Part shown: positions 27,453-60,905 of the stretch, piece after piece
Position numbering within the stretch: the stretch's first letter is position 1
How the letters are laid out: every line of letters begins with the position of its first letter
From: an uncultured Azospirillum sp.
GTDB lineage: Bacteria > Pseudomonadota > Alphaproteobacteria > RF32 > CAG-239
DNA length: 64,000 nt
Reading direction: 5' to 3'
NCBI GenBank assembly: GCA_947301965.1
Contig: CAMYUM010000001.1
Span: 1 to 64,000 of the forward strand
Program-made: the position numbers and the translations under genes
Notes under the pieces: generated by a model
The model's database searches: none
Told to the model about the DNA's origin: nothing
Seen by the model: only the letters and a program-made list of their open reading frames with translations

Positions 27453-28901
27453 ATGGCTGGCGAAGCAATTACTACTAATAACGAAGATGTCCAAGATGAA
27501 TGGGGACAAATTTGCTCGCAATTAAAACAAGAGGTTGGAGAAAAGGCTTTTGACAGTTGGTTGAAGCCGTTGAGCATAAGCTCTTTTTCCAGCGGAGTAA
27601 TGAACATCAGTGTGCCGACGCGTTTTATGCGCAACTGGGTTATCACAAATTACTCTGACAGAATTCATAAAATATGGGAAAAGAAAAATCCTAATATAAA
27701 AAGTATTAATTTTATTGTTCAGGCCGCAGACGAAGGTATTATGACCGGAGTGCGTAATTCTACCTGTAGATCTTTATTAAAGAAAGTTTATCAAAGTCCG
27801 GCACCACAAAACATATATCAGTCCGGGTTAAACAATATTCAGCTGGAATCCGGTTATGTTTCTGATGCTAACCAATCGTTGTCTGTGCCGCTGAATCCGC
27901 AATATACCTTTGAAAATTTTGTTGTCGGCAAAACTAACGAGTTTGCTTATGCTGCGGCAAGAAAGGTTGCCGAATCCGACGATATACCGTTTAATCCGTT
28001 GTTTTTATATTCGGGCGTAGGACTCGGAAAAACCCACCTGATGCACGCCATTGCATGGAGAATTAAACAAAGAAATCCAAACAAAAATATTGTTTATTTG
28101 TCTGCAGAGAAGTTTATGTATAAATTTGTAAGAGCTCTGCGTTATAAAGACACCGCCGCTTTTAAAGAACAATTTCGCTCAGTTGATGTTTTGATGGTTG
28201 ACGATGTTCAGTTTATGGGCGGTAAAGACACCACACAGGAAGAATTTTTCTACACCTTTAACTCTTTGATTGAAGAAGGCCGTCAGATAATTATTTCTGC
28301 AGATAAATCTCCTTCTGATTTGGAGGGAATCGAAACCCGTCTGCGTTCTCGTTTGGGTTGCGGATTGGTCGCTGATATTCATCCGACTGATTTTGACCTC
28401 AGAATCGGTATTTTGCAAGCCAAAGCAAAACAGCTTAATTGCGAACTGCCACAAAAAGTTGCCGAATTTTTGGCGCAGAAAATTACTTCAAACATCCGTG
28501 AGCTGGAAGGTGCTTTGCGTCGCATAATTGCTCATACACAATTGCTGCCGGGTAAAGAGATAACCCTTGAAAACACTCAAGATGTATTGAAGGATATGTT
28601 GCGTTCTTATGACCGCAGAACAACAATAGATGAAATTCAGAAAAAAGTAGCTGAACACTTCAATATATCGGTCAAAGAAATGCAATCATCACGCCGTGCA
28701 AGAACCGTGGCCAGACCTCGTCAGATTGCCATGTATTTGGCCAAGCTTTTGACATTGCGTTCTTTGCCGGAAATAGGGCGAAAATTTGACCGTGATCATA
28801 CAACGGTAATGCACGCGGTGCGCAAAGTTGAAGAACTTATAAAAGAAGATTCAAGCGTTGCCGAGAGCGTTGAAGTTTTGCGTCGATCTTTAGAGGCATA
28901 A
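27453..28901 (+). CDS. dnaA: Chromosomal replication initiator protein DnaA
   Basis: DnaA binds DnaA boxes at oriC and melts the origin. The 482-residue protein has the N-terminal domain (WGQICSQLKQEVGEKAFDSWLKPL), a variable linker, the AAA+ ATPase with LFLYSGVGLGKTHLMHAIA, VLMVDDVQF and the RSRLGCGL sensor region, and the C-terminal DNA-binding domain with the signature RHH-type loop FDRDHTTVMHAVRKVEEL. The start at 27453 has AAGGA upstream. It is preceded by rpsT and followed by a Nudix gene, dnaN and recF, a standard cluster. The 250-base gap before it lacks clear DnaA boxes. Confidence 0.98.
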   Translation: MAGEAITTNNEDVQDEWGQICSQLKQEVGEKAFDSWLKPLSISSFSSGVMNISVPTRFMRNWVITNYSDRIHKIWEKKNPNIKSINFIVQAADEGIMTGVRNSTCRSLLKKVYQSPAPQNIYQSGLNNIQLESGYVSDANQSLSVPLNPQYTFENFVVGKTNEFAYAAARKVAESDDIPFNPLFLYSGVGLGKTHLMHAIAWRIKQRNPNKNIVYLSAEKFMYKFVRALRYKDTAAFKEQFRSVDVLMVDDVQFMGGKDTTQEEFFYTFNSLIEEGRQIIISADKSPSDLEGIETRLRSRLGCGLVADIHPTDFDLRIGILQAKAKQLNCELPQKVAEFLAQKITSNIRELEGALRRIIAHTQLLPGKEITLENTQDVLKDMLRSYDRRTTIDEIQKKVAEHFNISVKEMQSSRRARTVARPRQIAMYLAKLLTLRSLPEIGRKFDRDHTTVMHAVRKVEELIKEDSSVAESVEVLRRSLEA

Positions 28902-56975: not shown

Positions 56976-57157
56976 ATTTTTAATTCCTCTTTATTAATAA
57001 AAATATTTATAACCTGTTTGATTTTTTGTGCAAGGTTAAAAAGGGTGTTTTTTTGACTCTAGAGAGTCCTTTTATTTATTCTTAATACTTGTGTCATAAA
57101 ATGCTTTAAAAGTCTCTGTACGGGCTTGTGACGGATTCAAATTTTTACGGGGAAAAA

Positions 57158-57851: not shown

Positions 57852-59105
57852 TTAAGAATTCATATTATTGAAGAAATCTTTGTTATCTTTGCTTTGTTTT
57901 AGTTTATCAAGCAAAAATTCCATTCCGTCAGTCATTCCCATTTGCATTAATACACGACGTAAAACCCACATTTTGGTTAATGTATTTTTATCAACCAAAA
58001 GTTCTTCTTTTCTGGTGCCGGAACGTGTAATATCAATAGTCGGGAATAAACGTTTATCGGTAAGTTTGCGGTCAAGTATGATTTCAGAGTTACCTGTTCC
58101 TTTAAACTCTTCAAAAATTACTTCATCCATACGAGATCCGGTATCAATCAAAGCAGTTGCAATAATAGTCAGAGAACCACCTTCTTCAACATTACGTGCT
58201 GCACCCAAAATACGCTTTGGACGTTGTAAAGCATTTGCATCAACACCACCGGTTAAAACTTTGCCTGATGAAGGAATAACCGTATTATATGCACGACCTA
58301 AACGAGTAATAGAATCGAGTAAAATAACAACATCTTTTTTGTTTTCGACCAGGCGTTTAGCTTTTTCAATTACCATTTCGGCAACTTGAACGTGGCGGGT
58401 TGCCGGCTCATCAAAAGTTGATGATATAACTTCACCTTTAACCGAACGGGTCATATCCGTAACTTCTTCAGGACGCTCATCAATCAATAAAACCATAAGA
58501 TAAATTTCAGGATGATTGCTTGAAATTGCATGAGCAATATTTTGCAACATAACTGTTTTACCTGTTCGTGGCGGAGCAACAATCAAACCGCGTTGACCTT
58601 TGCCTTGCGGAGCTATTAAGTCAATTATTCTTGTGGTATAATCTTTGTCACCGCAAAGAATATCAAAATCCAGTTTTTCGGTAGGATATAAAGGTGTTAA
58701 GTTATCAAAATTTATACGTAATTTTGATTTTTCGGGATCATCAAAGTTAATACGATTGATTTTAGTCAGCGCAAAATAACGCTCGTTTTCTTTGGGAGCC
58801 CTGATTTCACCTTCTATGGTATCACCGGTACGAAGACCGAATTTTTTGACCTGGGCCGGAGATACATAAATATCGTCAGGACCGGCAAGATAGTTGGATT
58901 GAGCTGAACGCAAAAAACCAAAACCGTCTTGCATAACTTCAATTGTGCCATCGCCGTAGATAATATTATCATCAGAGGCAACTTTTTTTAGGATTGAAAA
59001 CATTAAATCTTGTTTACGCATAGATGATGCGTCTTCAATACCTAAGGCTTCTGCTTCTTCAAGCAGTTGAGCCGGTGATTTTTCTTTTAATTCTTTTAAA
59101 TGCAT
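57852..59105 (-). CDS. rho: Transcription termination factor Rho
   Basis: Rho is the hexameric RNA translocase that stops transcription. The 417-residue protein has the N-terminal helix bundle ([20 protein letters not shown]), the RNA-binding FGFLRS region, Walker [12 protein letters not shown], the Q-loop segment, and the [14 protein letters not shown] and [32 protein letters not shown] motifs. The ATG at 59105 is chosen because it gives the typical [11 protein letters not shown] start; the frame is open up to 59171 but without similarity. It is the last gene before the gene-free region. Confidence 0.97.
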
Positions 59106-59171
59106 ATGTACCTGTTTGAAAATTTTTAGTAGGATTGTGTTGGAAAATATATAAGAAGTGTTAAATAACAA

Positions 59172-59593
59172 TTGCTTTATATATTATTTTTTAAAGTATG
59201 TCAATGTTTGATTGTTCGGCTTTTTATCAACAGTTCGTTTCACCCAATAAATATTTTAAAAAAGTTTTTGTGGTTTGTAAATAGCTGCTCAATTTGGGGA
59301 TTATTTTTTATACACCGGGTTATACATATGTTGATAATATTGTGATAATAAACTTTATATTTTTAAATGCTTTTAAGAGACTCGTGTAAGACCTAATATA
59401 AAAATTTGTAAACATTTTTATTGAATAAAAAATCAAATATACGGTTATTAAGATAAAGCAAATATGTTTACAAAACTTATCAACTTGTTATTATCTTTAT
59501 TGGTTAAATATCAATTATCAGGATTAAATTTGATGATTGATTAATTTTGACGGTTTTATACACAAGGGATGTTTATAATTCGGAATCAGAATA
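59172..59593. other. oriC: Predicted chromosomal origin of replication (oriC)
   Basis: This is the longest gene-free region in the window; including the stretch to the rho start it is about 490 bases. It is very AT-rich and contains six 9-mers close to the DnaA box TTATNCACA: TTATCAACA (59224), TTATACACC (59308), TTATACATA (59320), the reverse of TTATCAACA (59329-59337), TTATCAACT (59477) and the exact TTATACACA (59556). A long A/T run from 59341 to 59475 could be the unwinding element. Two GANTC methylation sites lie at 59379 and 59583. In Caulobacter-type genomes oriC lies between the rho side (with hemE) and the coaE/dnaQ side, exactly this setting. Not confirmed by skew or experiment. Confidence 0.75.
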
Positions 59594-60178
59594 ATGAAAC
59601 TTATAGCGATTACAGGTTCCATAGGTTGCGGAAAAACCACTATTGCAAAAATTGTAAGAGAGCAGGGATATACAGTTTTTGATGTCGATGCGTGGGTGCG
59701 CAGAATGTATTTTCAAAAATCTTTTATTGCACAAATTGCAAAAACTTTTCCAGATGTTATGGAAGAAGGTGTGGTTAACAAAAGATTACTCAGAAACAAA
59801 GTGTTTGATGATGAAAAAGAATTGAAAAAACTTGAAAAGCTAACCCACCCGTTTTTGCGAAAATATTTAAAATATGTAATCAAAAAAAACAGTAAATATA
59901 ATGATTGTTTTTTTATTGATGTGGCTTTGTTGTATGAACTAGGTTTGGAAAAGTTTTGTGATTTTGTAGTGGTAGCCGATGTTGATTATAAAATACAAAA
60001 AAAGAGGGTAATGAAAAGAGACGGCGTTAAGGCTGAAGATTTTGATAAAATTAATGATATACAAATGAGTAATGAAATAAAAAAACAAAAAGCCGATATC
60101 GTTATTGATACCGATAAATCACTTAATTTATTAAAACTTGATGTAATAACTATGATTGACTATGTAGAAGGTTTTTAA
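59594..60178 (+). CDS. coaE: Dephospho-CoA kinase
   Basis: CoaE phosphorylates dephospho-CoA, the last step of coenzyme A synthesis. The 194-residue protein has the P-loop GSIGCGKTTIAK, the DVDAWVRRMY segment, the THPFLRKYL motif and VIDTDKSLNLLKL near the end. It lies next to the predicted origin and 4 bases before dnaQ, an order conserved in alphaproteobacteria. Confidence 0.93.
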   Translation: MKLIAITGSIGCGKTTIAKIVREQGYTVFDVDAWVRRMYFQKSFIAQIAKTFPDVMEEGVVNKRLLRNKVFDDEKELKKLEKLTHPFLRKYLKYVIKKNSKYNDCFFIDVALLYELGLEKFCDFVVVADVDYKIQKKRVMKRDGVKAEDFDKINDIQMSNEIKKQKADIVIDTDKSLNLLKLDVITMIDYVEGF

Positions 60179-60182
60179 GACT

Positions 60183-60905
60183 ATGGTTAGAGAAATTGTT
60201 TTTGATACAGAAACAACAGGACTTTCTCCGGAAAAAGGCGACAGATTGGTTGAAATAGGAGCAGTTGAGCTTATTAATCATTTGCCGACCGGAAAAACGT
60301 ATCATCAATATATTAATCCTGAAAGAGATGTGCCGGAAGAAGTTGTTGCGGTACATGGTTTGACTGAAGAATTTTTAAAAGATTATCCGGTGTTTGCTGA
60401 TGTGGCACAGGATTTTATAGATTTTGTCGGTGATGATGGAATTTTAGTTGCTCATAATGCTTCTTTTGATATGGGTTTTATAAATTATGAACTGAGAAGA
60501 ATAGGGCGGGAAGAATATAATTGTGACAATGTTGTTGATACATTGGAAATTGCGCGCAAAATGTTTCCGGGGTCCAAAAACAATTTGGATGCTTTATGTA
60601 AGCGTTTTGGTGTTGATAACAGTAATCGTACATTGCACGGAGCTTTGCTTGATGCTGATTTATTAGCAAAGGTTTATTTGGAATTATTGGGTGGTGATGA
60701 GCCGTCCATGCTGGCAGACGCACAACAAACAAAATCACTAAACAATAATAATGCAGATTTTTTGAGTGATAAAAAATATCATGAACCGAGAATTTTTGCG
60801 ATCAGCGAAGCAGAAGAAAAAGCTAATCGTGAATTTTTAGAAGCAAAAATAAAGAATTCTATTTGGTTGTCGGACGAATCAGAGAGCGCCGATAAGGGAA
60901 AATGA
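60183..60905 (+). CDS. dnaQ: DNA polymerase III epsilon subunit (3'-5' exonuclease)
   Basis: DnaQ proofreads for the replicative polymerase. The 240-residue protein has the three exonuclease motifs: FDTETTGL (Exo I), AHNASFD (Exo II) and HGALLDAD (Exo III with the HxAxxD pattern). A short charged tail would bind the alpha subunit. Its 3' end overlaps the end of the convergent ADP-kinase-like gene by 27 bases. Confidence 0.96.
   Translation: MVREIVFDTETTGLSPEKGDRLVEIGAVELINHLPTGKTYHQYINPERDVPEEVVAVHGLTEEFLKDYPVFADVAQDFIDFVGDDGILVAHNASFDMGFINYELRRIGREEYNCDNVVDTLEIARKMFPGSKNNLDALCKRFGVDNSNRTLHGALLDADLLAKVYLELLGGDEPSMLADAQQTKSLNNNNADFLSDKKYHEPRIFAISEAEEKANREFLEAKIKNSIWLSDESESADKGK

Follow-up and report, generated by a model that had tools for sequence, protein, structure and literature searches.

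The window analysed here covers the initial 64 kb of contig C1, which is 266,773 bp long and belongs to a draft genome of 1.29 Mb in 21 contigs (G000). An earlier note on this DNA described the gene order parB-parA-rsmG-mnmG-mnmE-rho | coaE-dnaQ; this order is present, with a few small genes interspersed (e.g., a gene for a HAD-type hydrolase at 57128). The divergent genes rho and coaE are separated by a gap of 488 bp (59106-59593), in which no Rfam match to an RNA element was found. The earlier note had started the gap at 59172, as the rho open reading frame can be extended to a TTG codon; this start is wrong, since the alignment to the Rho family model begins with residue 1, at the ATG at 59105. 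The features of the locus are listed below, with the strand where one applies.

27453-28901, plus: dnaA (TIGR00362), approximately 31 kb left of the probable origin
57852-59105, minus: rho (TIGR00767, 684 bits), ATG at 59105
59106-59593: rho-coaE intergenic region, very probable oriC (boxes, AT maximum, skew change-point, 75 relatives)
59176-59204, minus: putative rho promoter TTGACA-N17-TATAAA, read from the sequence, columns conserved in the family
59224-59232, plus: DnaA-box-like TTATCAACA, rho-side box; exact box near this place in 24 of 76 aligned spacers
59244-59284: conserved A/T-rich tract (column conservation in the 76-spacer alignment), candidate unwinding element
59296-59304, minus: exact DnaA box here in about 25 of 76 aligned spacers; degenerate in the window
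59308-59337: cluster of three box-like 9-mers, TTATACACC at 59308 (plus), TTATACATA at 59320 (plus) and TTATCAACA at 59329 (minus)
59330-59348: where relatives most often have the CtrA-type TTAA-N7-TTAA (37 hits in 76 spacers); the window's clade has lost it
59379-59383: GANTC (GACTC), CcrM-type methylation site; the same stretch carries one in most relatives
59478-59490, plus: IHF-like site TATCAACTTGTTA, by consensus match
59556-59578: coaE-side box pair TTATACACA-N5-TGTTTATAA, conserved more than any other part; first box exact at this place 73 times in 76 aligned spacers
59583-59587: GANTC (GAATC)
59594-60178, plus: coaE, dephospho-CoA kinase (TIGR00152)
60183-60905, plus: dnaQ, DNA polymerase III epsilon subunit (TIGR01406)

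The gap contains six DnaA-box-like 9-mers with at most one mismatch to TTATNCACA, at 59224 (+), 59308 (+), 59320 (+), 59329 (-), 59556 (+) and 59570 (-), versus 1.06 expected (sd 1.01, composition-matched; P ~0.0005). Both the number of boxes and the exact match at 59556 (TTATACACA, plus strand) agree with what had been claimed; the latter is the sole exact box among the six, several sites that are strong in relatives being degenerate here. The gap ranks first of the 135 ORF-free gaps that are 300 bp or longer, both in number of boxes (6; next 4) and in density (14.2 per kb). Six or more boxes within 430 bp were found at just two places genome-wide, the gap and C6:8550; the cluster at C6:8550 (7 boxes) was rejected, as it lies inside an ORF. 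The AT content of the gap is 76.4% vs 58.9% in the genome and is unmatched by any other 488-bp window; the two GANTC sites reported before are indeed found at 59379 and 59583. Thus, two features used to recognize alphaproteobacterial origins (Pubmed Central PMC1914354), an AT content above the genome average and several DnaA boxes with no intergenic rival, were observed at this locus.

The relatives compared were metagenome-assembled genomes, several of them from rumen, deer and other gut samples, with 'Azospirillum sp. CAG:239' among them. The rho-gap-coaE arrangement is kept in 75 of 80 named relatives, with a gap of 412-624 bp that carries 5-12 boxes (median 9). The strongest aligned blocks are the rho promoter, the 59224 box, the A/T tract, the TGTGGATAA/TTATCCA cluster at 59296-59330, and the coaE-side pair TTATNCACA...TGTGNATAA; the box blocks near 59476 and 59556 are conserved among G000, G002 and G009. 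GANTC occurs 2.4 times per spacer in relatives vs 0.6 expected. IHF-like matches are found in 35 of 76 spacers (0.51 per spacer in the family vs 0.12 expected); the window has one, at 59478.

The motif TTAA-N7-TTAA occurs 138 times in the spacers of relatives vs 7-32 times for each other spacing from 3 to 12, and CtrA sites, with this sharp peak at spacing 7, are present in the origin of 63 of 75 relatives. No TTAA-N7-TTAA was found in the gap of the window, where there is only an N6 variant at 59363; the N7 sites are gone throughout the window's clade (G000, G002, G009, G008) and in G010. Conserved in most relatives, the CtrA-type sites of the origin have been lost (window positions 59330-59376) in one clade that retains ctrA: the genome encodes CtrA (NF045991, 402 bits), as well as GcrA, a RAMA-domain protein of the CcrM kind, and a single DnaA (one Bac_DnaA_C match). 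CtrA sites are also missing from some known alphaproteobacterial origins (PMC1914354).

In outgroups of the class, the gene order is hemE-gap-ppsR-maf-aroE-coaE, the gap carrying DnaA boxes and GANTC sites; in G042, for example, hemE (3604131-3605144) is followed by ppsR at 3605846, maf at 3606691, aroE at 3607304 and coaE at 3608138. Four outgroup hemE-ppsR gaps contain 4-6 boxes and 3-4 GANTC sites each. Searches for hemE, ppsR and aroE gave no match in the window's genome or in the 33 relatives from its family and order that were covered, whereas control genomes did match. The earlier note was therefore right to regard flanking genes as lost, and its list of missing genes holds for hemE, ppsR and aroE but not for maf, as a Maf protein is encoded at C13:17443. 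Most family members have a single Maf gene elsewhere in the genome; outgroups often have two. As both genes are absent from the family, adjacency to hemE or ppsR is impossible here; on the coaE side, a position orthologous to that of the hemE-ppsR (COG1806) origin (PMC1914354) was nevertheless found. The outgroup gene order and box-bearing gaps, combined with the family-wide absence of the three genes, indicate that the gap is orthologous and that the loss is old. In the short outgroup loci, rho was not seen next to hemE. The ancestral adjacency on the rho side is based on the position of rho beside hemE in Caulobacter.

The absence of hemE, ppsR and aroE extends over the entire family (G000-G033). 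It suggests that haem synthesis has been lost and that a step of the shikimate pathway is missing or has been replaced.

On C1, raw skew has strongly positive values for 200 kb to the right of 55-60 kb and is negative at approximately 45-55 kb, and weakly positive at 0-45 kb. To separate transcription from replication, plus- and minus-strand genes were compared at fourfold-degenerate sites (strand-corrected skew). The maximum-likelihood change-point on C1, obtained with no position prior, falls between -7.3 and +3.7 kb of coaE and gains 110 log units over a model with no break. In relatives, the change-point coincides with the gap in G029 and lies within 3 kb of it in G010 and within about 7 kb in G024. 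Its position is less precise in G006 and G002; on the contigs of G004, G009, G011, and G012, which are short or one-sided, it is found elsewhere. When the break is fixed at the gap, the skew steps up by +0.20 to +0.36 in all seven genomes having both flanks. In all 60 named relatives whose flanks both reach 5 kb or more, the rho side has the lower GC skew (mean -0.066 vs +0.170), and the cumulative GC skew has its minimum at the gap in a 391-kb contig of G024. The sign is reversed at the gap in G006, G010, G011, G024, and G029, but not in G000 and G002. Hence a skew minimum, the check that the earlier note had proposed, is seen in several relatives but not in the window's own genome, where the skew steps up without a change of sign on the left. 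A replication-linked skew switch, as at bacterial origins, is found at the locus. The KOPS-like GGGNANGG also switches strand at the gap on long contigs (45/79 left, 59/27 right, P 6e-6), and in G000 it points away from the gap (1/7 left, 12/5 right). The same kind of test in 10-kb flanks was uninformative, as GGGNAGGG is mostly on the plus strand on both sides (80/6, 34/2); we suspect that this excess is due to conserved coding sequence.

As the skew, the box enrichment, the conservation in 75 relatives and the outgroup synteny agree, we conclude, as the earlier note had proposed, that the rho-coaE gap at 59106-59593 is the oriC of the main chromosome, from which replication starts in a DnaA-dependent manner (with a probability of roughly 0.94). 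It is of the ordinary alphaproteobacterial kind, but its flanking genes are new. As far as we have searched the literature, which yielded no joint mention of CAG-239 and a replication origin, an oriC between rho and coaE is new for this family. The gap marks oriC in draft genomes of a large uncultured family of gut alphaproteobacteria, and the position of oriC has to be known if growth rates are to be estimated from metagenome coverage or plasmids built.

Two other readings of the gap have to be considered. It could be the ancestral origin in a clade that now initiates replication further left, the left arm being copied toward the gap. The skew of the same sign on the left and right in G000 and G002, though most blocks are oriented as in G010 and G006, would fit such a shift, as would the partly degenerate boxes and the lost CtrA sites of the window's clade; however, a sharp skew step persists at the gap in G000, GGGNANGG is still directed away from it there, the box blocks at about 59476 and 59556 are still conserved in G000, G002, and G009, and no other box cluster stands out in any gap, so that we regard a moved start as very improbable. 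It is equally hard to credit that the gap is only a conserved region with divergent promoters of rho and coaE, the boxes being regulatory or accidental and the origin lying elsewhere: the conserved TTGACA-N17-TATAAA does face rho, and the skew sign is not reversed here in G000, but such a region would leave unexplained the skew step in every genome with both flanks, the strand switch of the KOPS-like motif, the 5-12 boxes in every relative and the box-bearing orthologous gap beside hemE in outgroups, and there is no rival gap elsewhere in the genome.

The oriC between rho and coaE occupies the same ancestral place as the Caulobacter crescentus origin (Cori), which lies between hemE and COG1806 (ppsR), the outgroups here keeping hemE-gap-ppsR-maf-aroE-coaE. 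Like Cori, it is approximately 400-500 bp long, is richer in AT than the genome as a whole, and contains several DnaA boxes, GANTC, and a candidate IHF site; CtrA sites are present in most relatives, and ctrA, gcrA, and a ccrM-type gene in the genome. Unlike Cori, it is flanked by rho and coaE (hemE, ppsR, and aroE being lost), and the window's clade lacks TTAA-N7-TTAA. The Rickettsiales, whose origins lie between hemE and COG1806 in Rickettsia and between hemE and COG1253 in Wolbachia and Ehrlichia, also have about 400 bp of AT-rich intergenic DNA carrying DnaA, CtrA, and IHF sites, and set a precedent in that their flanking genes have changed and their CtrA sites vary in number (PMC1914354); however, they keep hemE on one side, whereas here neither hemE nor ppsR remains.

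By analogy with the Caulobacter type, DnaA, encoded at 27.5 kb, would bind the box arrays at 59224, 59308-59337, and 59556-59578 and open the neighbouring A/T-rich tract at 59244-59284, after which two forks would leave the origin, one through rho and the other through coaE. CcrM may act via the GANTC sites inside the gap, and in most relatives the CtrA sites, placed among the DnaA boxes as in Caulobacter, could have a regulatory role. The position is very probably the ancestral alphaproteobacterial one: prior to the radiation of the family, hemE was lost on one side and ppsR, maf, and aroE were lost on the opposite side, so that rho and coaE came to lie at the edges of the origin. The alphaproteobacterial origin thus keeps its place while its classical marker genes disappear.

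The left arm of the window's clade is unusual. Strand-corrected b equals +0.08 on the left and +0.38 on the right in G000, and +0.22 and +0.42, respectively, in G002; the asymmetry is opposite in G010 (-0.30 left, +0.06 right). About half of the G000 sequence is in contigs with strong skew (~0.37) and half in contigs with weak skew (~0.1); the KOPS-like GGGNAGGG follows the skew in the former (18/0) and mostly opposes it in the latter. Inversion of the left arm was rejected as the cause, as most left-arm blocks are oriented as in G010 and G006, and so was gene-strand bias, as plus- and minus-strand genes were compared at fourfold-degenerate sites. The hexamer GAATCG is strongly strand-polar in G000, being enriched on one strand while its complement is depleted (528 vs 52, each contig being oriented by GAATCG itself), independently of gene strand (274/23 and 217/15), and its polarity does not switch at the origin, the window left of it containing 45 plus- and 2 minus-strand copies. 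The 8-mer ACGAATCG is found in 58 copies in G000, with one orientation per contig.

The main chromosome of this clade might be copied mostly by one fork, the right fork running round the circle, or be subject to another whole-chromosome single-strand process. Either would explain the lost or slightly reversed skew of the left arm despite outward KOPS-like motifs, as well as the single polarity of GAATCG through the origin. We consider this unlikely, as the genomes resemble one another in step size and differ mainly in the offset. Circular chromosomes are described as bidirectional, and unidirectional replication has been demonstrated for chromids (PMC7858055). The unidirectional chromids of Pseudoalteromonas, with their atypical GC skew at the origin, are a possible parallel to the missing sign reversal here (PMC7858055); however, they are secondary replicons, whereas the origin described here is a DnaA-type origin of a main chromosome, with a normal sign reversal in several relatives.

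Within 10 kb of the origin, GAATCG counts in 75 species are 70/106 on the left and 213/24 on the right, i.e., the hexamer tends to switch there, and these counts show that strict whole-chromosome polarity is not general among the relatives. In G024, no GAATCG was found in the portion of contig C2 covered by the analysis. The 391-kb record JAISVX010000001.1 is titled 'Lactobacillaceae bacterium'; its coaE position coincides with that of contig C4 of G024, an alphaproteobacterium of this family, and the label looks wrong.
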